A DNA stretch of 22,106 nt, taken from a virus. The DNA lies in the IMG/VR virus record IMGVR_UViG_3300002242_000293, positions 2,191 to 24,296 of that record, one strand, 5' to 3'. Made by a program: the position numbers and the translations under genes. Below the pieces are notes generated by a model, which was given only the letters and a program-made list of their open reading frames with translations, made no database searches and was not told where the DNA came from. Positions 2,150-14,126 of this stretch are shown here, one piece after another. Position 1 is the stretch's first letter. Each line of letters begins with the position of its first letter.

Positions 2150-2358
2150 GAAAAAAAACTTGGGTTAAATCAAAAAGACAAAGAGTAATTAAATGTGGTA
2201 CTTGTACTATGTGCGATAAACCTATGATGTCAGATGAAGGTGGTTGGATTATTAATGCAGAAAAAAAATTCTTTTGTGAAAGACATCGTGCTAACGAACA
2301 TAGTTGCTTTGATGAATATTTAAAACAATATAGAGAGTGGAAACAATTACAACTGTAG
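2143..2358 (+). CDS. zinc-ribbon-like small protein
   Basis: A 71-residue protein with a CGTCTMC cluster (C-x2-C-x2-C) at about residues 18-24 and a second cluster FFCERHR with a later HSCF, so a Cys/His zinc-binding site is likely. The start at ATG 2143 is preferred to an in-frame TTG at 2128 because it gives a short overlap with the restored end of the upstream gene. It is the last plus-strand gene of the left block and ends face to face with the DnaA-like gene, the two overlapping by 12 bases. Function unknown. Confidence 0.65.
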   Translation: MVRKKTWVKSKRQRVIKCGTCTMCDKPMMSDEGGWIINAEKKFFCERHRANEHSCFDEYLKQYREWKQLQL

Positions 2359-2868
2359 TTGTTCTTTAAGTTCTTTAAACTCTTGGTGTATTGTTTTTTC
2401 TGACGACCAAAATCTATCTCCCATAAATTTTAATCTTCTATGATGAATAACTGTTGAGTGATCTATCTTTAACATTCTACCTAACTCAGATAAAGATATA
2501 CCATACACTTCTAAGAAAAGATTAATCATAATACTTCTTGCTCTAACTAAATATTCAAATCTTCTTGTCCCAAGCAATTTATCTCTTCGCATTTCATATC
2601 TAATGCAAATTTTATTAACAAGAGCATCAAAGGTATTACGACCTACACATTTTCTTTCTGTGGGTATTTTATTTTTTTTATCTTCTTCTATCTTTTGTTG
2701 TTTTAATTTTAATTTAAACAACTGACCTTCTATCTTTGCTTTGTTTTGTTGTAATGACATTCTATAACCATTCTTAAATCCAGTTTTGTATAACATTAGT
2801 TCTCTTCCTGTTAGTTCTCTATACATTGGAGCATTCATGGCTTGTTTTAATTGTGTAAGTGTTTTCAT
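2347..2868 (-). CDS. DnaA domain IV-like DNA-binding protein
   Basis: The 173-residue product has a charged helical segment (about 37-66) and a C-terminal region (about 78-147) that closely follows the DnaA DNA-binding domain: a basic helix with RRFEYLVRARSIMINLFLE, then GISLSELGRMLKI and the signature-like DHSTVIHH at 136-143, equivalent to the DnaA-box recognition motif. There is no AAA+ ATPase part, so it is not a full initiator. Phages carry such stand-alone domains, and a role at a replication origin or as a repressor at DnaA-like boxes is inferred. It is the last gene of the minus-strand replication and recombination operon, and its ATG overlaps the stop of the tiny gene upstream (ATGA). 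Confidence 0.8.
   Translation of the reverse strand: MKTLTQLKQAMNAPMYRELTGRELMLYKTGFKNGYRMSLQQNKAKIEGQLFKLKLKQQKIEEDKKNKIPTERKCVGRNTFDALVNKICIRYEMRRDKLLGTRRFEYLVRARSIMINLFLEVYGISLSELGRMLKIDHSTVIHHRRLKFMGDRFWSSEKTIHQEFKELKEQLQL
2349..2362. terminator. short palindrome at convergent gene ends
   Basis: ACAACT-GT-AGTTGT forms a 6-bp inverted repeat exactly where the plus- and minus-strand genes end against each other. It has no long T-run, so it is at best a weak bidirectional terminator. Confidence 0.2.
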
Positions 2869-3737: not shown

Positions 3738-4070
3738 TTAAAATCCAGACTGTTTATTTGTACCATACGCAGCTTTTTTAGCAAACGTCTTTTGTGGTGT
3801 AAAAGATGGTTGTCCACCACCGCTACTACTAGCAGAACTAGGAGTATTAGGGGATAACTTAATTGTTATACCACCAGTAGGATTACCATTGTCATCTTTG
3901 GTATTCCAACCTGCCTGATTATACCATGCGTTGCCAACCTTAACTCCGATTGTCCAGTTCTTACCTTTGGCTTGTGCTTCCACGTTAGGTGGTGCTACCC
4001 AATCAGGATGTTTATCTTCTGTTTTTTTTTCGTTGGGTATTACATTTACCCATATAGCTTCATTGCTCAT
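3738..4070 (-). CDS. possible ssDNA-binding partner of the recombinase
   Basis: The 110-residue product has a beta-rich N-terminal region (about 1-72, with HPDWVAPP, KNWTIGVKVGNAWYNQAGW and GGITIKLS) and a flexible Ser/Gly/Pro-rich C-terminal tail (PSSASSSGGGQPSFTPQKTF). A small beta-barrel followed by a disordered tail is how many phage single-strand-binding proteins look, and the gene overlaps the ERF recombinase gene by 11 bases. The tail lacks the acidic tip typical of bacterial SSB, and I see no decisive motif, so the role is inferred from shape and neighbours. Confidence 0.6.
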   Translation of the reverse strand: MSNEAIWVNVIPNEKKTEDKHPDWVAPPNVEAQAKGKNWTIGVKVGNAWYNQAGWNTKDDNGNPTGGITIKLSPNTPSSASSSGGGQPSFTPQKTFAKKAAYGTNKQSGF

Positions 4071-4758
4071 TTTTTCCTTTTGTTACCTGCAACTTTACAG
4101 ATTTAAAGTCTCTATATTGTTGCACATTATTTAATTCCAACTCTTTAGCATCAGCAACTTTCTTTAATTGCTTGTATACTTTAGAATTGTTTTTCATAAG
4201 ATATTGGATTTCATGCTTATATTTATCCGCTAGATTATAAAACTCTTTAGAGCTTTTAGCTAACCGGATATATCCTTTTATCTCTTCGGCATCCACATTA
4301 TCATCAAGATAAACTGGACTTGTTTCTTTGGATTGCTCCTTAGAAATTTTATTAAAAGGTTTAGCTTCATAGCCATCTTCGTCTTTTACACCTGTCTTTA
4401 GATTTAAAAGATTTAAGAAAGCATACTTTCTGGAATAAGACATTGCCTTACCTGTTCCAAAAGCATCTATACCTCCCATTGCTGAACAACCATCAACTAT
4501 TACAAAACTTGTTGGGTTGTCAATGTCATGTACTTTCATTGTACAAACAACCATGACCGCATCTGTTTTATCCATAACTTCCGTTAGATAATTACAAGTC
4601 ACATACAAGTTATTATCGAGTAATGCTTGTGTAGCAACTTCTTGTACTGCGTCATGTAGTAAGGGATTAAAGTGCATCCCTCCTTTTTTTTCAGCTTTTT
4701 TTACTCCACCTGCTTGTAAACAAGCTGAGTGTAGTTTTTGATATATGTTTTTCTTCAT
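4060..4758 (-). CDS. erf: ERF-family single-strand annealing protein
   Basis: The 232-residue protein matches the ERF superfamily of phage recombinases, which anneal complementary single strands during recombination and end repair. Seen: an N-terminal helix-rich part with HFNPLLHDAVQEV, a beta region with VMVVCTMKVHD, and the signature GTGKAMSYSRKYAFLNLLNL at 101-120 followed by acidic DEDGY (126-130), corresponding to the ERF pattern G-x-A-x-(T/S)-Y-x-(R/K)-(R/K)-Y-x-L. The C-terminal third is charged and helical, as usual for the variable tail. An AAGGA lies just before the ATG. It is in an operon with a RecB-like exonuclease upstream, so the two form a likely exonuclease/annealase pair like lambda Exo/Bet. 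Confidence 0.85.
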   Translation of the reverse strand: MKKNIYQKLHSACLQAGGVKKAEKKGGMHFNPLLHDAVQEVATQALLDNNLYVTCNYLTEVMDKTDAVMVVCTMKVHDIDNPTSFVIVDGCSAMGGIDAFGTGKAMSYSRKYAFLNLLNLKTGVKDEDGYEAKPFNKISKEQSKETSPVYLDDNVDAEEIKGYIRLAKSSKEFYNLADKYKHEIQYLMKNNSKVYKQLKKVADAKELELNNVQQYRDFKSVKLQVTKGKNEQ

Positions 4759-6591: not shown

Positions 6592-7085
6592 GATTATTTT
6601 TATTATTAATACTTATACCTTTGACTAGTTGTGCTGATATTATGCTATTAGGTAGTAGTTATGGTGTTGTAGGATCATCTAATACTTATGTTAAAGCATA
6701 TAACACTATAGATGTTGTTTCTCTTGCAACAACAAAAAAGGATATTAAACAACACGCATTGGACAAAATACAAAAGAAGAAAGAACACCAACCGGTAGCT
6801 ACTTTAAATCAATTAAAGCTCATTACTAAACAATTAGTACAATTAACTGCATTACATAAAGAGGTTAATTTAAAATTAGATCAATTAACAATACAGGTTG
6901 AGCTTAATCAAGAAGATGTAGATACAAGACTTGTTGATTTAGAGACTAATAAGTTAGTTGCTTTTTATAAAACAAAATATGCTAATCTTATAGCTATGCA
7001 CAAAAAATCTAAATCTTATAAATCTCCAAAAGAATTAGCCATTGTTTTACAAACTAAACTTAAAAGACAAAAGGAATTTGATTGA
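6588..7085 (+). CDS. phage-encoded lipoprotein
   Basis: The 165-residue product starts MRLFLLLILIPLTSC: a short positively charged n-region, a hydrophobic core and a lipobox L-T-S-C with the acylated Cys at residue 15. After the cleavage site follows DIMLLGSSYGVVGSSNTYV, then a largely helical, lysine-rich region with coiled-coil character (75-115) and a basic end. It should be an outer- or inner-membrane lipoprotein facing the periplasm. Possible roles are superinfection exclusion, envelope modification or an o-spanin-like function; the gene lies far from the holin, which speaks against a spanin. Coupled to both neighbours by overlaps. Confidence 0.7.
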   Translation: MRLFLLLILIPLTSCADIMLLGSSYGVVGSSNTYVKAYNTIDVVSLATTKKDIKQHALDKIQKKKEHQPVATLNQLKLITKQLVQLTALHKEVNLKLDQLTIQVELNQEDVDTRLVDLETNKLVAFYKTKYANLIAMHKKSKSYKSPKELAIVLQTKLKRQKEFD

Positions 7086-7387
7086 TGACTTATAACCCTT
7101 TGCCTATCTTTTGTACTATCAAACCTAGTTTTATTCATGGTTTAGGTTTGTTTGCTACAAGAGAAATAAGGAAAGATACTGTTTTAGGTGTATCTCATGT
7201 TAGAGTTCAAAATGAGTTATTTCGCACTCCGTTAGGAGGATTTTTAAATCATTCGGAAACATCTAATTGCGAAAGAGTTGAAGTTCTTGGTCAAGATAGA
7301 TGGGTATTAAAAACAACAACAGATATTATGCCAGACCAAGAGCTGACACTAACTTATACTTTGTATAAACCTGATGAGATTTGCTAA
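7085..7387 (+). CDS. SET-domain protein (putative lysine methyltransferase)
   Basis: The 100-residue product is a compact SET domain: IHGLGLFATREI (17-28), corresponding to the GxG cofactor loop; LGGFLNHSETSNC (50-62), matching the N-H-S-x-x-x-N-C pseudoknot motif; and DQELTLTYTLY (84-94), matching E-E-L-T-x-x-Y with Tyr91 in the catalytic position. Known SET proteins transfer methyl groups from S-adenosylmethionine to protein lysines. There are no pre- or post-SET cysteine modules. The start is ATG 7085, which overlaps the lipoprotein stop (TGATG). It overlaps the next gene by 14 bases. The target is unknown; a host or phage protein is possible. Confidence 0.8.
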   Translation: MTYNPLPIFCTIKPSFIHGLGLFATREIRKDTVLGVSHVRVQNELFRTPLGGFLNHSETSNCERVEVLGQDRWVLKTTTDIMPDQELTLTYTLYKPDEIC

Positions 7388-7761: not shown

Positions 7762-8478
7762 ATGCAAAAATATTTACCGCACATTCGAATACCATTTAAA
7801 CTCTTTGATGATGAGAGGATAAGAAAGATACCGGAAGAACACCGATCATCTTCTTTGCTAATCCTCATTGCGTTGTTAAAGTTTGTAAATACCCAAAATG
7901 GACAATGTTATCCACGTCAAGCCACAATATCTAGTATGGTTTGTTTACACCGATCTACTATATATAGATGTACTGAATTACTACAGGAAGTTGGTATCTT
8001 AAAAACTAAACGACTTAAATCTACTTTGCTATATACTATTCATTCTGATTACCTTGTGCATAAGAAATACAATGTCTCATCAAAAGACAGTAATGTTTCA
8101 TTAAAAGACATGACAGGTCGCATGATGACTGATATTAGTAAAACTACCATTAAAGAAACTATCATATCTAACTTAGTAAAAGAGATTGTTAGTAATGGAG
8201 GGGATAAGGAACATATTACGGATAAATTAGCTACTCTACCCCGCAATACCCTTACTAAAGCAATTCAAGAAAAGGATAACCCTTATTATTGTTCTTTAGC
8301 TCTCAGTAAACAAGACGAAAAAGGCAAAGGTGTGCTGGTGGCTATACCTAGAAATATTATTAGTGATATTAGAAAGAAAACTCATTTCGGTTATCAACAA
8401 AAGGTAAACAAGACTAAACGAGATCATGACAGGAAGATTAAGTCAAAAGATTTATTGCGAGGCGATAGCAAAGACTAG
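7762..8478 (+). CDS. winged-helix DNA-binding protein, replication-initiator-like
   Basis: From ATG 7762 the product is 238 residues. The N-terminal domain (about 15-110) has LLILIALLKFVNTQNGQCYP followed by RQATISSMVCLHRSTIYRCT and ELLQEVGILKTKR, the classical winged-helix arrangement found in phage and plasmid replication-initiation proteins (N-x-x-x-G-x-(C/A)-(Y/F)-P-(S/R)-x-x-(T/R)-(L/I)-A/S). The C-terminal half is basic, with few hydrophobic residues. In phages such proteins act as initiators or transcription regulators. An in-frame upstream start at 7699 reads through the preceding gene and is rejected; TAAGG precedes ATG 7762. Its 3' end overlaps the CCCH gene by 53 bases. Confidence 0.75.
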   Translation: MQKYLPHIRIPFKLFDDERIRKIPEEHRSSSLLILIALLKFVNTQNGQCYPRQATISSMVCLHRSTIYRCTELLQEVGILKTKRLKSTLLYTIHSDYLVHKKYNVSSKDSNVSLKDMTGRMMTDISKTTIKETIISNLVKEIVSNGGDKEHITDKLATLPRNTLTKAIQEKDNPYYCSLALSKQDEKGKGVLVAIPRNIISDIRKKTHFGYQQKVNKTKRDHDRKIKSKDLLRGDSKD

Positions 8479-8848
8479 CGGTAAAAGATGTAGAGCCAAA
8501 GGATATTTTACACCTACAAGTAAACGATTTCTTTGTAGATTTCACAAAGGTTGCTTTTCAACAGATAGCAAGACCAGAAAATACAAAGGACTTTTTAGAA
8601 ATAATAAGTTAAGTATAGACAAAAAGATTATTAGATTAAAAAACTTAAAAAATTTTAGAGATAAAACAGATGAACAAATCAAAGAGTATATCCAAAGTGA
8701 AGAAAAACGATCTCACTCTTTCGGATATAGAACAAAGTACTATACTAGGCACTATCTACGATGGAGGTCTAGCCATAGACGTAGCAAAAGACTTAAAGAT
8801 CAGCTTACGGACTTTTTACAGGTACTTAGAGACAAACCCAAAGTTTAA
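8426..8848 (+). CDS. CCCH zinc-binding-like protein, long overlap with terS
   Basis: The 140-residue frame has Cys11, Cys22, Cys37 and His40 spaced C-x10-C-x14-C-x2-H in a basic context (GKRCRAKG, FLCRFHKG), likely a zinc-binding site, then a lysine-rich helical part up to about residue 95. The last 60 residues (RTKYYTRHYLRWRSSHRRSK and beyond) overlap the small terminase gene by 179 bases in another frame and look like out-of-frame reading. A lost base near the AAAAA at 8702-8707 would end the protein much earlier. The start overlaps the winged-helix gene. Function unknown; phage proteins with a Cys/His HGG-type motif before the terminase are common. Confidence 0.6.
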   Translation: MTGRLSQKIYCEAIAKTSGKRCRAKGYFTPTSKRFLCRFHKGCFSTDSKTRKYKGLFRNNKLSIDKKIIRLKNLKNFRDKTDEQIKEYIQSEEKRSHSFGYRTKYYTRHYLRWRSSHRRSKRLKDQLTDFLQVLRDKPKV

Positions 8849-9137
8849 AGCTGAGTTTAATAAAGCTCAGGAAGTAGGCATTAAAACTTTAGTTGAGAAA
8901 ATGCTACAAATATTTGATACTGGACAAATGGACCTATCCCCGAATGAACTTTTATTTATTCGAGAAAAAAAAGATTTTCTTAAATGGTTAGCTCCAAGAG
9001 TATCTAGCTTATTTACTGAAAAGCAAAAGATTGATGTCAAGTCTGATAGTGTCGTAAAAATTTCATGGGAGAGTGAACCTGATCTTATTGATGTAAGTAC
9101 TGCCGAAACAGTACCTACACCACCAAAGGATAACTAA
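8670..9137 (+). CDS. terS: terminase small subunit
   Basis: The 155-residue product has an N-terminal helix-turn-helix of the small-terminase type: a basic leader, LTLSDIEQSTILGTIYDGG, then AIDVAKDLKISLRTFYRYL with a recognition helix, and NPKFKAEFNKAQEVG leading to a helical central domain (LVEKMLQIF, NELLFIREKKDFLKWLAPRV), ending in an acidic tail. TerS binds the packaging site and hands DNA to the large subunit. Usually it directly precedes terL; here about 3.7 kb lies between. A GTG at about 8697 is an alternative start. The gene ends against the first gene of the minus-strand island, overlapping it by 4 bases. Confidence 0.75.
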   Translation: MNKSKSISKVKKNDLTLSDIEQSTILGTIYDGGLAIDVAKDLKISLRTFYRYLETNPKFKAEFNKAQEVGIKTLVEKMLQIFDTGQMDLSPNELLFIREKKDFLKWLAPRVSSLFTEKQKIDVKSDSVVKISWESEPDLIDVSTAETVPTPPKDN

Positions 9138-9430
9138 ATTTTAAATGAATTAAGTTTTACTTTATTCCAATTTTTACACCTAATAGATTTATGAGCTGAT
9201 GTCATTTCAGCTTTATCTAAATCTAAATTAACTTGTATTGATAAACCATTTAAACAAGCACTTCTGCTAGGATCATCACTTTTAAAATCTAATGGTATAT
9301 CAAAACCGACTTGTCTTTTATCACTATGTAAATATAAAAAAGTATCTTCCTGTTGTAAAAGATAACTTAATATATCTTCCTTATCTTCCAATGTAGATTT
9401 CTTTAAAAAATCTATTACTCTCTTGTTCAT
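9134..9430 (-). CDS. hypothetical island protein
   Basis: A 98-residue protein starting MNKRVIDFLKKSTLEDKEDI with a strong AAGGGGA ribosome binding site five bases before the ATG. It has an N-terminal helical part, then a beta-rich region with QVGFDIPLDF and LSIQVNLDLDKAEM. No family recognised. It is the last gene of the minus-strand accessory block and ends against the small terminase gene. Confidence 0.6.
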   Translation of the reverse strand: MNKRVIDFLKKSTLEDKEDILSYLLQQEDTFLYLHSDKRQVGFDIPLDFKSDDPSRSACLNGLSIQVNLDLDKAEMTSAHKSIRCKNWNKVKLNSFKI

Positions 9431-9584
9431 ATTTCCCCTTGTTTAGTTGTTTGTTTTTATAATGAGTGTAGATAACACCTCTTACACTCAAAATATTTAA
9501 TAGAGTTAATCTAGCTAACTCTGTTAAATTTATTTTACCACTTGCTATCGAAGTATTTTGATAAATATTTTTGTTGTTTTTCAT
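9381..9584 (-). CDS. hypothetical island protein with helical core
   Basis: From ATG 9584 the product is 67 residues with a helical centre INLTELARLTLLNILSVRGV and a charged C-terminus. It overlaps the membrane gene at 9535-9675 by 50 bases and the gene at 9134-9430 by 50 bases in different frames. In-frame ATGs further upstream (9602, 9623) are deeper inside the membrane gene. The central segment between its neighbours (9431-9534) has no other gene, supporting this one. Confidence 0.45.
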   Translation of the reverse strand: MKNNKNIYQNTSIASGKINLTELARLTLLNILSVRGVIYTHYKNKQLNKGKYEQESNRFFKEIYIGR

Positions 9585-9675
9585 ATTGTTTTTTCTTTTC
9601 ATCTTTGTACCATTGATAACCAAACACTACAACGGCAGTTAGTATAATTAATATTAATTGCTTTTCACTTGTCAT
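9535..9675 (-). CDS. small membrane protein starting MTSEKQ
   Basis: ATG 9675 encodes 46 residues: MTSEKQ, a transmembrane helix LILIILTAVVVFGYQWY and a charged tail KKKQYEKQQKYLSKYF. It overlaps the preceding gene's stop by 11 bases. The MTSEKQ start looks like a diverged copy of the MSSEK starts of three other genes in this island. Confidence 0.6.
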   Translation of the reverse strand: MTSEKQLILIILTAVVVFGYQWYKDEKKKQYEKQQKYLSKYFDSKW

Positions 9676-9856
9676 ATTTTAACCTTTTAAATTCTCTTTT
9701 AATTTTTCTTTTTAATTTTTTATGACTTAATATTATATCTGTTTTACGAAAAGATAACTTACTTAAATCGTAATCGTGTATTAAAGTTTCCATTATAACA
9801 TCAATATCAAATATAATATGTTCTTTTAATTGTTTGATTTGCTTCTCGCTACTCAT
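9665..9856 (-). CDS. small helical protein of the MSSEK group
   Basis: A 63-residue, highly charged helical protein (MSSEKQIKQLKEHIIFDIDV, ending KRKIKREFKRLKYDK). Its start codon sits in the repeated junction sequence ATGAGTAGCGAGAAG, where the upstream gene ends with GAG-TAG inside this gene's first codons. No function recognised. Confidence 0.55.
   Translation of the reverse strand: MSSEKQIKQLKEHIIFDIDVIMETLIHDYDLSKLSFRKTDIILSHKKLKRKIKREFKRLKYDK
9841..9856 (-). repeat. junction repeat copy 1 (ATGAGTAGCGAGAAGC)
   Basis: This 16-base unit recurs exactly at 9992-10007, and as 15 bases at 10427-10441. Each copy is a gene start (MSSEK) and also encodes the last Glu and TAG stop of the upstream gene. 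Confidence 0.8.
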
Positions 9857-10007
9857 TATTTATTTCCTCCGCTTTAAAATGATCTTTATCATAATCAAAA
9901 AACCACTCATCACTACCTTTTAAAATTGCGTCATCGTAGTCTTTAGCTTTGACTTCAATTTCCCACTCAATACTTACTTTGTATGTTTTTTGCTTCTCGC
10001 TACTCAT
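9855..10007 (-). CDS. small alpha/beta protein of the MSSEK group
   Basis: ATG 10007 encodes about 50 residues: MSSEKQKTYKVSIEWEIEVK, then AKDYDDAILKGSDEW and an acidic end finishing INNE with TAG inside the next gene's start. The pattern strand, V-x-A-x-x-x-(D/E)-(D/E)-A helix matches two other island products (10000-10164 and 10151-10441), so these look like paralogues. An AGGAAAT precedes the next gene within this one. Function unknown. Confidence 0.6.
9992..10007 (-). repeat. junction repeat copy 2
   Basis: Exact 16-base copy of the unit at 9841-9856. It starts the MSSEKQ gene at 10007 and ends the gene at 10000-10164 (LLNE then TAG). Confidence 0.8.
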
Positions 10008-10164
10008 TTAATAACTCGCTACTAATAGTATTATTTTGTAATATAGAATCAACTTGTTGCCAATTTTTAGCTTTCTCTATTGCTTCTTCTTCAGAATTAG
10101 CCTTAACCTCACACGTATAAATAATAGTTTGTTCTGAAGTATCTGTTAATTTATATGTTTTCAT
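10000..10164 (-). CDS. small EAnEEEA-type alpha/beta protein
   Basis: The 54-residue product starts MKTYKLTDTSEQTIIYTCEV and continues KANSEEEAIEKAKNW, the strand-turn-helix pattern V-x-A-x-S-E-E-E-A-x-x-x-A common in small phage proteins. ATG 10164 is chosen because AAGGGGA stands 5 bases upstream; an in-frame ATG at 10191 would lie before that site. It resembles its neighbours at 9855-10007 and 10151-10441. Function unknown. Confidence 0.65.
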   Translation of the reverse strand: MKTYKLTDTSEQTIIYTCEVKANSEEEAIEKAKNWQQVDSILQNNTISSELLNE

Positions 10165-10441
10165 TATTTCCCCTTTTTGTTTTTTTTTCATTTATTTTTA
10201 ATCTTCTACTTATTGGTTTTTCAAAAATAACTTGACCCTTACTATTGATACGTTCTATATCAATTAACTTATCATCTGCCTCTAAATCACCGATTTCTGT
10301 CCATTCGTGATTATAATTATATTTTAAATCGTGTGCTTTTCCACTTGCCTCTTCTCTGTTTTTAGCCTCAATAGTTATTTGATAATGTTGCAAAAACCCT
10401 CTCGTTGCAATAAATTTATATTTTTTCTTCTCGCTACTCAT
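10151..10441 (-). CDS. MSSEK-group protein with EAKNREEA motif
   Basis: The 96-residue product begins MSSEKKKYKFIATRGFLQHY, followed by QITIEAKNREEASGKAHDL, the same strand-helix unit as two neighbours, and then an extra region with WTEIGDL and VIFEKPISRRLKIN. The ribosome binding site of the next gene is encoded in its C-terminus (KRGNNENI). It is the largest of the paralogue-like group. Function unknown. Confidence 0.6.
   Translation of the reverse strand: MSSEKKKYKFIATRGFLQHYQITIEAKNREEASGKAHDLKYNYNHEWTEIGDLEADDKLIDIERINSKGQVIFEKPISRRLKINEKKTKRGNNENI
10427..10441 (-). repeat. junction repeat copy 3
   Basis: ATGAGTAGCGAGAAG, 15 bases identical to copies 1 and 2. It starts the 96-residue gene and supplies the final Glu and TAG of the gene at 10434-10667. 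Confidence 0.8.
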
Positions 10442-10667
10442 CTGATACCTCCTTTACTTTAAATCTTACTTCAAATATTCCGTCATCATCCTTGCCATAG
10501 TGAGCCATTATTTGATTGTCATTTATAAAATCACATACAAGTTTTTCAACATAATTCCTTGAAAAAACTTCGTAATGGTTAGGACTATTTTTTATTTGTT
10601 TTTTCTTTTCTTCATACATTCTAGCTTTGTTGCTATCTTGTAATTCTGCTTTCTGTTCGTAGTTCAT
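10434..10667 (-). CDS. hypothetical island protein
   Basis: A 77-residue protein with a charged helical N-terminus (MNYEQKAELQDSNKARMYEE), a central FSRNYVEKLVCDFINDNQIM and a C-terminal strand DDDGIFEVRFKVKEVSDE. Its start overlaps the upstream stop as ATGA, and its end lies in the junction repeat. No known family. Confidence 0.6.
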   Translation of the reverse strand: MNYEQKAELQDSNKARMYEEKKKQIKNSPNHYEVFSRNYVEKLVCDFINDNQIMAHYGKDDDGIFEVRFKVKEVSDE

Positions 10668-10813
10668 TTAATTAACTCCTTTATTTGTTTATTATTATAT
10701 CCATAAGTTTTTAAACATTTGTAAAGTTGTTTTTTATTTATAATCTTATCAAAATAATCTTGAATTATATTGTTAATTGTATGTTCCATTTGCATATTAT
10801 AATTATTGCTCAT
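10664..10813 (-). CDS. tiny hypothetical island protein
   Basis: ATG 10813 encodes 49 residues (MSNNYNMQMEHTINNIIQDY, ending YNNKQIKELIK), helical, with its TGA overlapping the next ATG. GATGGGA about ten bases upstream may serve as ribosome binding site. Its C-terminal coding region contains AAGGAG, a good Shine-Dalgarno sequence for the following gene. No function recognised. Confidence 0.6.
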   Translation of the reverse strand: MSNNYNMQMEHTINNIIQDYFDKIINKKQLYKCLKTYGYNNKQIKELIK

Positions 10814-10814
10814 A

Positions 10815-10997
10815 TTATTTTTCCCATCTTTTGATTTGTCTCAATAGAGCTTCAGCACATCCAGAACGACCATAGTTTATATTATCAGTCCCGTCTGAAC
10901 ATATTTCTTCTAAATTATTATCTTTGGCATTAACAATTTCTTCATTATGTTTTATTTCGTCTTTTAACCATTTTTTTATTTTACTTATTGTTGTCAT
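10815..10997 (-). CDS. hypothetical island protein with ICSDG motif
   Basis: From ATG 10997, behind AAGGGGA, the 60-residue product is MTTISKIKKWLKDEIKHNEE followed by LEEICSDGTDNINYGRSGC and a final helix AEALLRQIKRWEK. The ICSDG stretch also occurs in the product of the next gene upstream. Cys and Asp could coordinate a metal. No family assigned. The longer frame from 11045 reads through the upstream gene and is rejected. Confidence 0.6.
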   Translation of the reverse strand: MTTISKIKKWLKDEIKHNEEIVNAKDNNLEEICSDGTDNINYGRSGCAEALLRQIKRWEK

Positions 10998-11193
10998 GTT
11001 TTTTTTCCCCTTGTTTAAGTTTGATTTCATCTTTCCAAGTATCAATCATTTCTTGTTCTTTTTGTGTTGCTTTCTTGTCAGCAATAAACTTTTTAACATG
11101 ATCCGGAAGGATATTAGAACCTATAAAGCCGTCTGAACAAATATACTCAAATGGTTGCATATGCTCTAATTCTTTGTCTATTTTTTTAAACAT
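10981..11193 (-). CDS. hypothetical island protein with ICSDG motif
   Basis: From ATG 11193 the 70-residue product has MFKKIDKELEHMQPFEYICS, DGFIGSNILPDHVKKF and a charged helical end. The YICSDG segment matches EICSDG in the following gene, also at DNA level over about 13 of 15 bases. It overlaps both neighbours by 16-17 bases. A longer start at 11265 would run through the tiny membrane gene and is less likely. Function unknown. Confidence 0.55.
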   Translation of the reverse strand: MFKKIDKELEHMQPFEYICSDGFIGSNILPDHVKKFIADKKATQKEQEMIDTWKDEIKLKQGEKKHDNNK

Positions 11194-11300
11194 TTTTGTT
11201 CTTTCTTTATAATGATTGAAGCTAAAATATAACCACCGATTATTTGTGTACCGGTAATTAAACAACCTAATAAAGTTATATCTAATATTAAATTAAACAT
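11178..11300 (-). CDS. tiny membrane protein
   Basis: ATG 11300 (TAATG with the preceding stop) encodes 40 residues, MFNLILDITLLGCLITGTQI then IGGYILASIIIKKEQKCLKK: one or two hydrophobic helices and a basic tail, which by the positive-inside rule would be cytoplasmic. No recognised family. Confidence 0.55.
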   Translation of the reverse strand: MFNLILDITLLGCLITGTQIIGGYILASIIIKKEQKCLKK

Positions 11301-11425
11301 TAATTAAGCTCCATTTGTGCAAACACATTATCTATTAATTGAGCTATAAGGTATTCTATACCTAAATAGCTCAAAAATAAAATCAATGTAATCAAGATTG
11401 ATACTATCATTATTTGCTTAAACAT
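11300..11425 (-). CDS. tiny membrane protein
   Basis: ATG 11425 encodes 41 residues with one transmembrane helix (IMIVSILITLILFLSYLGI) and a short end VFAQMELN. It overlaps the stop of the upstream gene and is followed by TAATG into a second tiny membrane gene, so the two are probably made together. Function unknown. Confidence 0.55.
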   Translation of the reverse strand: MFKQIMIVSILITLILFLSYLGIEYLIAQLIDNVFAQMELN

Positions 11426-11669
11426 TTAAATGTCTTGCAACCTCTTCAGGTGTTAAAACTCTAACATCTTTAATATTGCAATTATTTTGTCTCAACCATT
11501 TATTGATATGTTTTGTAGTCGTCATAGAGTATTTTTTAGAAGTTTTAAAAAAACCCTTTTCATCTAATCCGGCTACCGGTGTCGAGTATGAGAAAAAAAC
11601 ACTTTCGCAAGGTGTTTTCCCGTTTGTTATCTCTGTCTCGTTGTTTCCGTGTTTTATTAGTTTTATCAT
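11418..11669 (-). CDS. small conserved-type phage protein (SY-T-VA / YSxTTxKHI)
   Basis: The 83-residue product contains FFSYSTPVAGLDEKGFFKT, then KKYSMTTTKHINKWL and a C-terminal VRVLTPEEVARHLNV. The combination of S-Y-x-T-x-V-A with T-x-x-(K/R)-Y-S-x-T-T-x-K-H-I is a pattern I recognise from a widespread phage and plasmid domain of unknown function. AAAGGG precedes the ATG by 5 bases. Its end overlaps the tiny membrane gene. Confidence 0.7.
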   Translation of the reverse strand: MIKLIKHGNNETEITNGKTPCESVFFSYSTPVAGLDEKGFFKTSKKYSMTTTKHINKWLRQNNCNIKDVRVLTPEEVARHLNV

Positions 11670-11723
11670 TTTTTACCCTTTGTTAGTTGTTTATTATTAT
11701 TATACTTTTTATTGTGTCGTAAT

Positions 11724-11900
11724 TTAGGCATTATCTATTAATTTTACTTGTCTATAAATATAACCATTATCTAAAACTTGCTTTTGTTTTTTGCAAACAC
11801 CTTTTAAAACAAGTTTATTAACAATATTTCTTGTTGCCTTGTCGTTTCCGTACCATTGCCAATTTTTATTTGCTTTTAAAAATTTAATTAAATTTTTCAT
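11724..11900 (-). CDS. small winged-helix-like island protein
   Basis: ATG 11900, behind a strong AAAGGGGAAAA, encodes 58 residues: MKNLIKFLKANKNWQWYGND, then KATRNIVNKLVLKGVCKKQK and a final YIYRQVKLIDNA. A helix, a T-x-x-x-V-x-x-L-V-x-x-G helix and a beta hairpin fit a winged-helix shape, so DNA binding is possible. It is the second gene in the island and could be a regulator. Confidence 0.6.
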   Translation of the reverse strand: MKNLIKFLKANKNWQWYGNDKATRNIVNKLVLKGVCKKQKQVLDNGYIYRQVKLIDNA

Positions 11901-11914
11901 TTTTTCCCCTTTCC

Positions 11915-12115
11915 CTATTCTAAATTTAAAGATTTTTTTAAATATTGTATAGTTGGAACTTTATTTAAAACTTCATCTTTAGTTTCACCTGAATAAAACT
12001 TACCATACCATTTTAAGAAATAAGTATTATTTATTTTATAAATTTTATTTCCTATTGTAATATTTTTCATAGCAAGTTGATTTTTAAGTTTTTCTTCAAC
12101 TATTGTGTTTATCAT
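11915..12115 (-). CDS. hypothetical first gene of the minus island
   Basis: From ATG 12115 the product is 66 residues: MINTIVEEKLKNQLAMKNIT, a hairpin IGNKIYKINNTYFLKWYGKF, and YSGETKDEVLNKVPTIQYL. An alternative ATG at 12145 adds MPYLFYTILA and would lie inside the 11-bp tandem repeat, so the inner start is favoured. It is the first gene of the minus-strand block, so its upstream DNA should hold the island's promoter. Function unknown. Confidence 0.55.
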   Translation of the reverse strand: MINTIVEEKLKNQLAMKNITIGNKIYKINNTYFLKWYGKFYSGETKDEVLNKVPTIQYLKKSLNLE

Positions 12116-12132
12116 TGCCAAAATGGTATAAA

Positions 12133-12154
12133 ATAAATAAGGCATAAATAAGGC
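12133..12154. repeat. two tandem 11-bp repeats upstream of the island
   Basis: ATAAATAAGGC occurs twice head to tail (12133-12143, 12144-12154), one helical turn each, between the divergent genes at 12115 and 12194. This spacing suits side-by-side binding of a regulator on one face of DNA. Confidence 0.6.
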
Positions 12155-12193
12155 ATATATTAATTATTTTATGTGTGATATATTTGCAACACT

Positions 12194-12376
12194 ATGAGAT
12201 ACACTTATTCAATAAAGGACCAATCTGGCAAAGAGGAAGAATATGAAGCCATGAGTTATAAAAAGCTATTGAAGAAGTTATCAATTAAATACAAGGACCA
12301 ATTAATTAAGATCAAATATATTAATAAACATAAGAATGAATTGATTAAGTTGGTTAAGATTAAAGAAGTTGAGTAG
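12194..12376 (+). CDS. small hypothetical plus-strand protein
   Basis: A 60-residue, lysine-rich product: MRYTYSIKDQSGKEEEYEAM, then SYKKLLKKLSIKYKDQLIKI and a strand-rich end. The strand, strand, helix, strand order resembles small phage alpha/beta proteins. No ribosome binding site is clear. It stands alone between the minus-strand island and the non-coding stretch before the late genes. Confidence 0.5.
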   Translation: MRYTYSIKDQSGKEEEYEAMSYKKLLKKLSIKYKDQLIKIKYINKHKNELIKLVKIKEVE

Positions 12377-12435
12377 AAAGTTGATATCCATTTACATTAA
12401 CAACGTTTGTTTTCAATGCGTATATAGTCGGATAG

Positions 12436-12467
12436 ATTACTAGCGATAATCTTTAGTTATCGGTAAT
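12436..12467. other. bulged stem-loop
   Basis: ATTAC (12436-12440), a 3-base bulge TAG, CGATAA (12444-12449), a 7-base loop, TTATCG (12457-12462) and GTAAT (12463-12467) form an 11-bp stem with one bulge. It lies in the gene-free stretch 12377-12660 upstream of terL. No T-run follows, so it is not a simple terminator; an RNA element, a packaging or recombination site are all open. Confidence 0.5.
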
Positions 12468-12509
12468 AGTAAATGCCTGTAATTTGTAGGAATTTGACTT
12501 TGTAAAATG

Positions 12510-12521
12510 GGGGTATACCCC
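12510..12521. promoter_or_regulatory. perfect GGGGTATACCCC palindrome
   Basis: A 12-bp perfect palindrome in an AT-rich, gene-free region. It stands out by base composition and could be a protein-binding operator. The same gap holds a T9 run (12535-12543), a second T-rich run (12630-12639) and the small repeat TACTA-TATC-TAGTA (12643-12656) directly before the next gene. I see no convincing -35/-10 pair, though a late promoter is expected here. Confidence 0.5.
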
Positions 12522-12660
12522 AGCAGACTGTCGCATTTTTTTTTATATATATACTCCGGATTTCTCAACAGACACACAGACAGCTTCTAAAGTAACCCAC
12601 ACCTAAATATAAACCCCTTTATACTTTAATTTTTTTTTTATTTACTATATCTAGTAGTAT

Positions 12661-12852
12661 ATGTGGGACTACATACAAGATGATTTAACCTCTATAGTGT
12701 TTATTGATGAGAAAACCAATACTCTTACTATTAAGATATATGGACTACACAATAAAAAAATTGCAGAACACTTTGCTCAATATACAATGAGCTTATTAGA
12801 CTTTGATTATAACCCTTCTGCATATAGTATGATAAGCAAAAGAATACACTAA
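12661..12852 (+). CDS. small conserved-type protein preceding terL
   Basis: The 63-residue product MWDYIQDDLTSIVFIDEKTN, then TLTIKIYGLHNKKIAEHFAQ and a C-terminal YNPSAYSMISKRIH is a two-strand, one-helix protein. I recall near-identical small proteins directly before the large terminase in marine phages. No Shine-Dalgarno sequence is visible before the ATG. It ends two bases before terL. Function unknown; a terminase-associated role is inferred from position only. Confidence 0.65.
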   Translation: MWDYIQDDLTSIVFIDEKTNTLTIKIYGLHNKKIAEHFAQYTMSLLDFDYNPSAYSMISKRIH

Positions 12853-12854
12853 AT

Positions 12855-14126
12855 ATGGATATTAAGATTCCTTACACACCTAGAAAACACCAAGCCTTTT
12901 TGCACAACAAAATTTCTAAATACAGATGGTCTGTACTGGTTTGTCATAGGCGGTTCGGCAAAACAGTATGTATGATTAATCATTTAATTAGGTCAGCACT
13001 ACTGTCTAAACAAAAGAATCCTAGATACGCATACATATCGCCAACATTTAAACAAAGTAAATCTATTGCTTGGGATTACATGAAACAGTTTACTGCCAAG
13101 ATACCTTTTACTAAGTTTAACGAAACAGAGTTAAGGGTAGATTTACCCAATGGTGCAAGAATAACTTTGCTTGGATCAGAGAACTCTGATGGGTTAAGAG
13201 GTATCTACCTAGACGGATGTGTAATAGATGAGTATGCCAATGTCCATAGCAAGTTGTTTCCTGAAATAATTAGACCAGCACTATCAGATAGAAAAGGTTA
13301 CTGCGTATTTATAGGTACACCACAAGGAATGAATAATAATTTTTACGAGCTGTACCAGCACTCACAAGGTGCGGATGATTGGTTTAACTATAAAGCTAAA
13401 GCAAGTGAAACTAAAATTGTAGACCCAGAAGAGTTAGTCAAGGCAAAAGAAGTAATGGGAGAAAAGAAGTATCAACAAGAGTTTGAATGTGATTGGATAG
13501 CTAACATAGAAGGTGCAATCTATAACGATGCTATTGTTAAGATGGAAGATAATAAACAATTAACAAGAGTACCTTACGATCCTAGTCTACCGGTCTCTAC
13601 AGCTTGGGATTTAGGAGTGGCGGATCATAGTAGTATTATCTTTTATCAGGAACTAGGTAGAGCTATTAATATTATAGACTACCATGAAGAACGTGGACAA
13701 GGATTACCGCACTACATACAGATATTAAAACAAAAAGATTATGTCTACAAAGAACATTTTGCTCCTCATGATATAGAAGTTACAGAGTTTGGTAATGGTA
13801 AGACGAGGAGAGAGGTCGCCTATCAATTAGGAATAAGATTTAAAGTTGTTCCAAAACTACCATTAGAAGATGGTATACACGCAACGTCTATGATTTTACC
13901 TAGATGCTGGATTGATACAGACCATTGCAAAAAGTTAATAGATGCGTTAAGACATTATCATCGGAAGTATATAGACAAAAATCGTATGTTCCGAAGTAAA
14001 CCTGTACACGATTGGTCGTCTCATGCGTGTGATGCGATGAGATACTTAAGTGTTGGTTTGCGAGAAATAAAAACTGGACAATCAGCTCCACAAGATGTAG
14101 CAGATAACAGTTACCAAATTATATAG
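12855..14126 (+). CDS. terL: terminase large subunit
   Basis: The 423-residue protein is the packaging motor and headful or site-specific nuclease. The ATPase domain has Walker A VCHRRFGKT (29-37), an adenine-side motif TPRKHQ near the N-terminus, Walker B CVIDE (122-126, Asp125/Glu126) and the coupling motif IGTPQG (153-158). The C-terminal RNase H-like nuclease has Asp252 in TAWDLGVADHSS, Asp276 in INIIDYHE and Asp393 in HACDAMRY, the expected acidic triad. The length is slightly short but complete. It is the first large gene of the late module. Genes of this compact type accompany T7-like or P22-like portal proteins. Confidence 0.95.
   Translation: MDIKIPYTPRKHQAFLHNKISKYRWSVLVCHRRFGKTVCMINHLIRSALLSKQKNPRYAYISPTFKQSKSIAWDYMKQFTAKIPFTKFNETELRVDLPNGARITLLGSENSDGLRGIYLDGCVIDEYANVHSKLFPEIIRPALSDRKGYCVFIGTPQGMNNNFYELYQHSQGADDWFNYKAKASETKIVDPEELVKAKEVMGEKKYQQEFECDWIANIEGAIYNDAIVKMEDNKQLTRVPYDPSLPVSTAWDLGVADHSSIIFYQELGRAINIIDYHEERGQGLPHYIQILKQKDYVYKEHFAPHDIEVTEFGNGKTRREVAYQLGIRFKVVPKLPLEDGIHATSMILPRCWIDTDHCKKLIDALRHYHRKYIDKNRMFRSKPVHDWSSHACDAMRYLSVGLREIKTGQSAPQDVADNSYQII

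Follow-up and report, generated by a model that had tools for sequence, protein, structure and literature searches.

A strand-reversed island of small genes between terS and terL of HTVC010P-type Pelagibacter phages as a probable early anti-defence locus

The terminase genes of the phage investigated here are set apart by a minus-strand block of small genes (9134-12145), hereafter the island, which keeps its position and strand among relatives while its gene content is almost wholly different from phage to phage. Given the fixed locus, the turnover of its content and the anti-restriction genes that relatives carry there, the island is most likely an interchangeable early toolkit against host defences. 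At the level of the locus it is probably an operon of anti-defence and host-takeover cassettes, for which early expression is predicted. The window, that is the whole stretch of 22,106 nucleotides analysed (from IMG/VR record IMGVR_UViG_3300002242_000293), was identified as a Pelagibacter podophage of the HTVC010P type (proposed family Ubiqueviridae), an ocean virus of SAR11 bacteria.

An island of small genes at a fixed position

TerL (12855..14126, plus strand), recognised by its identity to isolates, shares 82-90% of its amino acids with HTVC010P-type isolates, the exception being HTVC028P (59%), and the head and tail module displayed DNA similarity to the same type. The replication module contained an ERF-superfamily single-strand annealing protein (4060..4758, minus strand; PF04404, 45.9 bits, cut-off 25) and a DnaA_C protein (PF08299), both above cut-off; the isolates are annotated with the same kinds of replication gene. 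TerS (8670..9137, plus strand), whose stop is overlapped by the island by 4 bp, matched PF20901 Sf6_terminase (33.5 bits, cut-off 27) and phrog_1482, terminase small subunit (6.8e-10), and these Sf6-type matches ruled out a misidentification. Counterparts of TerS were present in 20 isolate records, most isolates annotating a 'putative DNA binding protein'. The claim of an earlier note that two real terminase genes are separated by the minus-strand block was thus confirmed. Its description of such genes as normally adjacent also holds, since TerS lies next to TerL in HTVC028P (452 bp) and likewise in a more distant group. On the TerL side, the small gene F5 (12194..12376, plus strand; 72 loci, pN/pS 0.19) diverges from the island, and a 63-aa gene, F0 (12661..12852, plus strand; 50 loci including HTVC028P, pN/pS 0.18), lies directly before TerL and is the only near-universal gene of the terS-terL interval.

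On the minus strand, ORFs of 40 aa or more cover 97.7% of the island, against 9.2% in simulated sequences (n = 300, maximum 29%); plus-strand coverage was 29.8%, equal to chance. For the most part, codon scores were positive for minus-strand frames and negative for plus-strand ones. About 15 tiny genes had been proposed; small minus-strand genes were indeed found, and their number was corrected to 16 ORFs. Two ORFs that had been listed mechanically with TTG starts more probably begin at internal ATGs (10997 and 11193).

All 16 ORFs, designated a to p, are on the minus strand. The head gene, ORF p (11915..12145), may start at a downstream ATG near 12114. It is followed by ORF o (58 aa, 11724..11900, behind AAAGGGGAAAAA; 2 loci, pN/pS 0.15), ORF n (83 aa, 11418..11669; phrog_5643 of unknown function, 2.9e-19; pN/pS 0.25), the hydrophobic ORFs m (41 aa, 11300..11425; pN/pS 0.30) and l (40 aa, family F23, 11178..11300; 21 loci, pN/pS 0.46), ORF k (F3, in 14/52 islands, 10981..11193; pN/pS 0.28), ORF j (10815..10997, its ATG behind CAAGGGGAAAA; 1 locus, 88% identical, pN/pS 0.17), ORF i (10664..10813; 4 loci, pN/pS 0.50) and ORF h (F7, 10434..10667; 24 loci, pN/pS 0.18). 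The linker ATGAGTAGCGAGAAG was found at the starts of ORF g (10151..10441), ORF e (F10, 9849..10007; pN/pS 0.17) and ORF d (9665..9856; pN/pS 0.81, the weakest constraint). ORF f (10000..10191), with a likely start at 10164 behind AAAGGGGAAATA, gave weak PHROG matches and a sub-threshold DpnD-PcfM match. The operon ends with ORF c (46 aa, F9-like, 9535..9675; 73 loci, pN/pS 0.28), ORF b (F1, in 23/52 islands, 9381..9602; pN/pS 0.35) and ORF a (98 aa, 9134..9430; homologs in 14 loci, pN/pS 0.45). Hydrophobic membrane-type stretches, as judged by eye, were seen in ORFs c (a single stretch), l and m. No homologs of ORFs f, g and p were found in the compared loci, and Rfam gave no structured-RNA match across 8400-13000. 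Nearly every testable island gene of the window is under purifying selection, pN/pS being 0.15-0.50 in 12 of 13 and 0.81 in the remaining one.

The island was present between terS and terL in 10 of the 11 isolate genomes (the exception being HTVC028P) and in 41 distinct IMG/VR contigs, with lengths of 1.7-4.3 kb, and its place and strand were the same across 60 loci. Over 52 islands the proteins fell into approximately 206 clusters, 126 of which were singletons. Because this accessory content changes almost completely at a fixed position and strand, the island is not core in relatives. A structural or replication core, which the earlier note had named as the finding that would speak against an accessory system, was ruled out by the lack of conserved content.

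Anti-restriction genes at the locus and the leader of the operon

The island families of relatives that have a recognisable function were all anti-restriction or DNA modification families, namely Ocr, Mom (29.8 bits, cut-off 27.1), Dam (61.6 bits) and MT-A70 (102 bits). The Mom and methylase genes are plus-strand genes of the TerL end, outside the minus-strand operon. Ocr of relatives matched PF08684 (27.5 bits, cut-off 25) and phrog_2568 (3.1e-15), and its profile matched T7 Ocr 1s7z (2.8e-5); a divergent branch (L280), taken alone, fell short of Pfam significance. Two members carry a net charge of -16 to -17 over 104 aa, and a structure model made from 5 sequences (pLDDT 54) was too poor to assign a fold. 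Wherever an Ocr locus includes a TerS or TerL marker, Ocr lies on the other strand from the terminase genes. It is found on the promoter-proximal side of the operon, approximately 0.85-1.6 kb from TerL where the contig includes TerL. A recognised anti-restriction gene was detected in only about 9 of the 52 islands. The earlier guess of an anti-defence role is upheld at the level of the locus by the Ocr, Mom, Dam and MT-A70 genes of relatives. This support does not extend to the genes of the window, as none of the island ORFs was assigned by Pfam or PHROG scans to a known anti-defence family or to any named family.

In the close relative L010 (TerS 98% and TerL 96% identical to the window), the slot of ORF n is filled by Ocr; the 5′ leader AAACAACTAACAAAGGG is common to both genes, and gene m follows in either case. 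Gene m is in relatives preceded by several different genes, one of them Ocr, most of which end in GAGGTTGCTTAATG or a close variant; the start of ORF m appears to be the point where upstream genes are exchanged. For a structure model of ORF n (pLDDT 68), the best PDB hit was not significant (E 0.63). By its place in the slot that Ocr holds in close relatives, this anonymous ORF becomes a specific hypothesis.

The leader at the head of the island (12100..12193, minus strand) contains a -10-like TTTTATA, a palindrome-like ACCATTTTGGC and a ATATCACA element. An ACCA..GG element was found in 40 of 44 aligned heads, the window included. The leader of relatives is conserved, with TTGAAC-N16-TATAAT-like boxes and an ACCA..TGG palindrome, and that of the window is a divergent version of it without a clear -35/-10 pair. 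A conserved non-coding control region (12377..12660) displays a GATAAT..TTATC inverted repeat, TATACCCC and a TATATATATA block. A consensus scan of the window region revealed no excess of promoter-like sites (26 vs 27.2), and terminators were likewise not in excess. A recurrent GGAGCTATAATATTTT, met in islands by a TATAAT scan, was rejected as a promoter because it belongs to the 3′ terminus of the genes of family F2. The conserved promoter-like leader of relatives is consistent with early expression.

The working of the island may be depicted as follows: phages that depend on the host polymerase would reserve a fixed genomic position, equipped with a divergent promoter region, for tiny proteins whose make-up varies from phage to phage. 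These proteins would counter the defences of the host, chiefly restriction, and would also redirect the host. Transcription of the operon would take place early, with the RNA polymerase of the host acting on the conserved leader, and the genes without a name, among them ORF n as occupant of the slot held by Ocr in L010, would be functionally of the same kind. Cassettes would be exchanged by annealing at short shared starts, plausibly via the ERF-type protein of the phage itself (4060-4758).

Two other accounts of the gene content were weighed. Fast-evolving non-functional or spurious ORFs in a spacer could be suspected from the tiny sizes, the value of 0.81 for ORF d and the three ORFs that have no homolog in the compared loci (10000-10191, 10151-10441 and 11915-12145). 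Such an origin is nevertheless extremely improbable, and was ruled out for most genes by minus-strand coverage, codon scores and pN/pS values well below 1 in nearly all testable genes; the operon is moreover kept across 60 loci. A general host-takeover operon, encoding inhibitors of host transcription, translation or metabolism in the manner of the early regions of T7 and T4 and with anti-restriction in a minority, is compatible with the anti-defence reading and is possible, though less likely than not, as the fuller description. It agrees with the many unnamed families, with small soluble and membrane proteins of a sort typical of takeover genes and with the low share of islands that hold a recognised anti-restriction gene, but the families that can be recognised are anti-restriction or DNA modification.

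Shared gene starts and exchange of cassettes

Unrelated island genes were found to have near-identical start sequences in common. Among start-similar pairs, the flanks switched in 219 of the 261 pairs in islands, compared with 16-18% elsewhere in the same phages. By protein comparison 92 pairs with at least 29/37 identity, from 66 families and 49 loci, were unrelated on both sides (a column-shuffled null gave about 2 pairs); diverged homology was rejected as their origin, as the protein re-test left 92 of 104 in this state. The MSSEK start keeps the uncommon synonymous codons AGT AGC GAG in 20 of 26 copies (approximately 0.9% expected) and its similarity reaches past the initiation region, and some linkers fall within the 3′ part of the gene upstream (GAGGTTGCTTAATG). 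From the shared starts and the switching of similarity at gene starts, island genes appear to be exchanged as cassettes.

A bolder proposal is put forward tentatively. The island might be a purpose-shaped locus for cassette exchange, with several standard linkers at the starts and ends of genes serving as short homologies with which the ERF recombinase swaps single anti-defence genes in register with the ribosome-binding site; the abundant HTVC010P-type phages might then draw on a common, largely undescribed pool of tiny counter-defence genes that spans the population, and ORF n might be a replacement of Ocr. Rivalling the exchange of cassettes and leaving the anti-defence reading aside, the shared starts could be regulatory, that is, phage-specific ribosome-binding or translation-control elements kept by selection, with recombination incidental. 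This is a serious possibility that falls somewhat short of an even chance. The elements are sited exactly at the ribosome-binding site and start codon, and the start-associated sequences (SASs) of cluster K mycobacteriophages were described as possible translation signals (PMC3203893). AAGGGG precedes 18% of island genes and 0.9% of long genes in the same phages, an enrichment of about 20-fold over long non-island genes. AAGGGGA sites, which had been said to precede many of the genes, are present in the window, but exactly so before 4 of the 16 starts (9430, 10164, 10997 and 11900), and 'many' was an overstatement. A purely regulatory role is opposed by the codon conservation of the MSSEK start and its extension past the initiation region, by the gene-to-gene switching of similarity and by the linkers within upstream genes.

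Comparison with known systems

HTVC010P-type phages rank with the most abundant ocean viruses known, and little is known of how they handle SAR11 defences. A locus at which relatives carry Ocr, Mom and methylases offers approximately 200 mostly unnamed small protein families as counter-defence candidates, and the shared starts offer a testable route for shuffling single phage genes without breaking expression.

Like the early region of T7-type phages, the island keeps small host-facing genes apart from the replication and structural modules, and relatives have a small acidic Ocr-family protein towards the promoter end, as in gene 0.3 of T7. It differs from T7 in being opposite to the late genes, between terS and terL, and the window is without Ocr; an RNA polymerase encoded by the phage is also reportedly lacking in the HTVC010P-type group (PMC10504331). 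The early anti-defence arrays of the archaeal virus SIRV2 similarly consist of many tiny unrelated genes with a common start or regulatory sequence, known anti-defence genes among them (PMC11065993). There, however, most array genes have their own promoter and a repressor, Aca8, is predicted (PMC11065993), whereas the window has one apparent operon with linkers at ribosome-binding sites and starts, and no repressor was identified.

The SASs of cluster K mycobacteriophages are likewise short and conserved, stand immediately ahead of the starts of genes with no other relationship, and have been suggested to be translation signals and possible recombination targets (PMC3203893). The linkers here are of several types, some entering the coding sequence (ATGAGTAGCGAGAAG) or the upstream stop (GAGGTTGCTTAATG), are concentrated in one island and have measured flank switching. 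The commonest island start sequences differ from the cluster K consensus GGGATAGGAGCCC with its extended inverted repeats. Judged on their sequence, the island starts work like SASs and are not members of them. The published hypervariable regions of HTVC010P-type phages contain tail-fibre, lectin-domain and ribonuclease genes rather than the terS-terL interval, and have in common with the island a conserved position and variable content in the same phage group (PMC10504331, PMC6487183).

A minus-strand operon between the terminase genes

The window, part of a 27.3 kb IMG/VR virus record, is assigned, on DNA and TerL comparison, to the HTVC010P-type pelagiphages, the proposed family Ubiqueviridae (PMC10504331). 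Both terminase genes are genuine. TerS (8670-9137, plus strand) belongs to the Sf6 type of small subunit, with a PF20901 score over the cut-off and a match to phrog_1482; the isolates' records give its counterpart no more specific name than 'putative DNA binding protein' or 'hypothetical protein'. TerL occupies 12855-14126 on the plus strand. The island between them (9134-12145, minus strand) is an almost gap-free operon, with minus-strand ORFs of at least 40 aa covering 97.7% of it versus 9.2% expected (maximum 29%); plus-strand ORF coverage across the same interval was at chance level. The minus-strand block between terS and terL described in an earlier note was thereby confirmed, as was its dense packing with small ORFs, the count being 16 in place of about 15. 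Of the 13 island genes that could be tested, 12 had a pN/pS of 0.15-0.50 and one, ORF d (9665-9856, minus strand), had 0.81, compared with 0.07 for TerL; on this measure the island genes are real.

A small plus-strand gene (12194-12376) diverges from the island head, and a conserved 63-aa gene (12661-12852, plus strand) precedes TerL. TerS and the last island gene have convergent stops overlapping by 4 bp (9134-9137), and 4-bp overlaps are found at the same place in the records of the isolates HTVC010P, Lederberg, Greip, HTVC204P and Skadi-2. A plus-strand gene at 8426-8848 adjoins and overlaps TerS; its counterpart is labelled 'putative methylase' in several isolates, a label without Pfam or PHROG support here. 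Elsewhere the window encodes a SET-domain protein (7085-7387, plus strand; PF00856, 41 bits, cut-off 22.4), to our knowledge unusual in phages of bacteria, and a DnaA C-terminal DNA-binding domain protein without the rest of DnaA (2347-2868, minus strand; PF08299).

Fixed position and changing content

TerL and TerS served to gather upwards of 130 loci from IMG/VR, in addition to the genomes of 11 isolates of the group and four outgroup genomes. Comparison of terS-terL synteny among relatives, as proposed in the earlier note, found the island slot throughout the 60 loci where both genes were placed, the terminase genes being on the same strand and 1.66-4.3 kb apart. The sole exception was the integrase-encoding isolate HTVC028P (TerL identity 59%), in which TerS adjoins TerL without an island, the gap being 452 bp. 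TerS also adjoins TerL in a distant group of three IMG/VR loci (L267, L269 and L281; TerL 52%), where an Ocr-bearing small-gene operon diverges upstream of TerS. The operon therefore occurs on either side of terS; terS may have changed position, or the operon may have been installed on two occasions. No megablast match to this distant group (L267:3208-5745) turned up in the phage collection.

A simple gene caller, applied to a non-redundant set of 52 islands from 10 isolates, the window and 41 IMG/VR contigs, gave genes that were mostly on the minus strand, with a median of 64 aa. They formed about 206 clusters including 126 singletons, counts that are approximate, since the caller misses genes and short, diverged homologs may end up in separate clusters. 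The commonest families were present in 23, 21 and 14 of the 52 islands, and only the TerL-adjacent plus-strand gene was near-universal.

Among 143 island-family representatives searched for function, the recognisable ones were Ocr (PF08684), Mom (PF25680), Dam (PF05869) and MT-A70 (PF05063), all four above Pfam's own cut-offs; every other match was weak, resembled DpnD-PcfM or concerned a domain of unknown function. Approximately 9 of the 52 islands carried one of the four. Pfam and PHROG scans detected none of them in the window's island ORFs, and the anti-defence role guessed in the earlier note is thus supported at this locus in relatives, not by the window's own genes. The relatives' Ocr, a protein of 104 aa for which two members gave net charges of -16 to -17, matched phrog_2568 (3.1e-15), and a profile built from 17 sequences of the family hit T7 Ocr among PDB entries (2.8e-5). 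Of the genes with a name in the phage collection, the closest to it were those annotated 'ocr-like anti-restriction' in enterobacterial podophages. Wherever an Ocr locus also holds a marker for TerS or TerL, Ocr runs opposite to the terminase genes; in contigs that include TerL, it lies about 0.85-1.6 kb from that gene. Mom and the methylases were plus-strand genes situated at the interval's TerL end. The head-position genes of four IMG/VR loci (L035, L051, L111 and L129) have net charges of -17 to -21, which makes them strongly acidic, and end in EVA; they are possible further DNA mimics besides Ocr.

The close relatives of the window show Ocr and ORF n replacing each other in one slot. ORF n (11418-11669, minus strand; 83 aa) belongs to phrog_5643, a family of unknown function. 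In L010 (TerS 98% and TerL 96% versus the window) Ocr lies directly before the hydrophobic 41-aa ORF m (11300-11425, minus strand), a place filled by ORF n in the window, L013, L177 and L211/L286. The L010 Ocr and the window's ORF n have the 5′ leader AAACAACTAACAAAGGG in common, and the following gene is also the same. In L090 (TerS 96%) and L091 (TerS 94%) Ocr is near the head, with other genes separating it from ORF m. Various genes stand before ORF m across the relatives, and most of them terminate in GAGGTTGCTTAATG or a sequence close to it. Judged from its slot, ORF n might hypothetically be an anti-defence gene; its relatives among named phages of the collection were found only in Prochlorococcus phages.

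Gene-start linkers

Near-identical DNA opens unrelated island genes. The linker ATGAGTAGCGAGAAG (MSSEK) is present in 3 copies in the window, where a one-mismatch search with GAGTAGCGAGAA found 3 versus 0.04 expected, and outside the window it opens many different proteins. An IMG/VR scan located it at no fewer than 40 places in contigs that carry a pelagiphage marker, almost always at the start of a short ORF; matches in contigs without the marker were mostly unrelated or internal. The uncommon codons AGT AGC GAG recur in 20 of 26 MSSEK starts, where codon usage would predict about 0.9%. The start is therefore conserved at the DNA level.

When 391 island genes were compared, 261 pairs were start-similar (at least 29 of 37 bases agreeing at -22 to +15) versus a null of about 2, and at the protein level 92 pairs, from 66 families and 49 loci, were unrelated on both sides. 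A by-family test gave strong enrichment at -20 to -1 (165 pairs, null maximum 18); at +4 to +15 the 194 pairs were below the largest null value of 203. The linkers could be translation signals or recombination sites. Similarity was lost on one or both sides in 219 of the 261 island pairs (84%), compared with 16-18% among these phages' genes outside the island, a switching which speaks against the former, and recombination sites are the tentatively favoured reading. The ERF-family annealing protein encoded by the window phage would be a plausible agent of exchange at the linkers. The more novel proposal, that the island is a locus shaped for cassette exchange at these linkers, is somewhat more likely wrong than right.

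Expression timing and known systems

The leader is conserved in 44 relatives of the same head type despite differing first genes. It contains repeats resembling GTTGYATWTATATCACA in tandem, boxes of the TTGAAC-N16-TATAAT type (17 fit the strict pattern) and, in 40 of the 44 including the window, an ACCA..GG palindrome-like element before the RBS. Because the leaders share descent, shuffled controls show only that the pattern is non-random. The window's leader is shorter and without a clear -35/-10 pair, and a generic promoter scan of the window found no excess of promoter-like sites. For these reasons we can only infer early expression; the grounds are that the leader is separate and divergent, that the group reportedly lacks a phage RNA polymerase (PMC10504331) and that there is an analogy with T7 Ocr. 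The pelagiphage transcriptomes in PMC12753301 are from types other than the HTVC010P-type. Before the TerL operon, a conserved non-coding region (about 12377-12660) contains a GATAAT..TTATC inverted repeat, TATACCCC and a (TA)n block; its HTVC010P counterpart carries the DnaA-box-like TTATCCACA, and its recognisable blocks are absent from HTVC028P. The region could be an origin, a packaging site or a promoter region.

At the level of the locus, the island is probably a cassette operon that is expressed early and whose products counter host defences and serve host takeover. The combination and its terS-terL placement appear undescribed in the surveyed literature, the group's main genomic account being outside the survey. 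The parts are of known kinds, the start linkers resembling the start-associated sequences of cluster K (PMC3203893) and the small-gene array resembling the early anti-defence arrays of the archaeal virus SIRV2 (PMC11065993).
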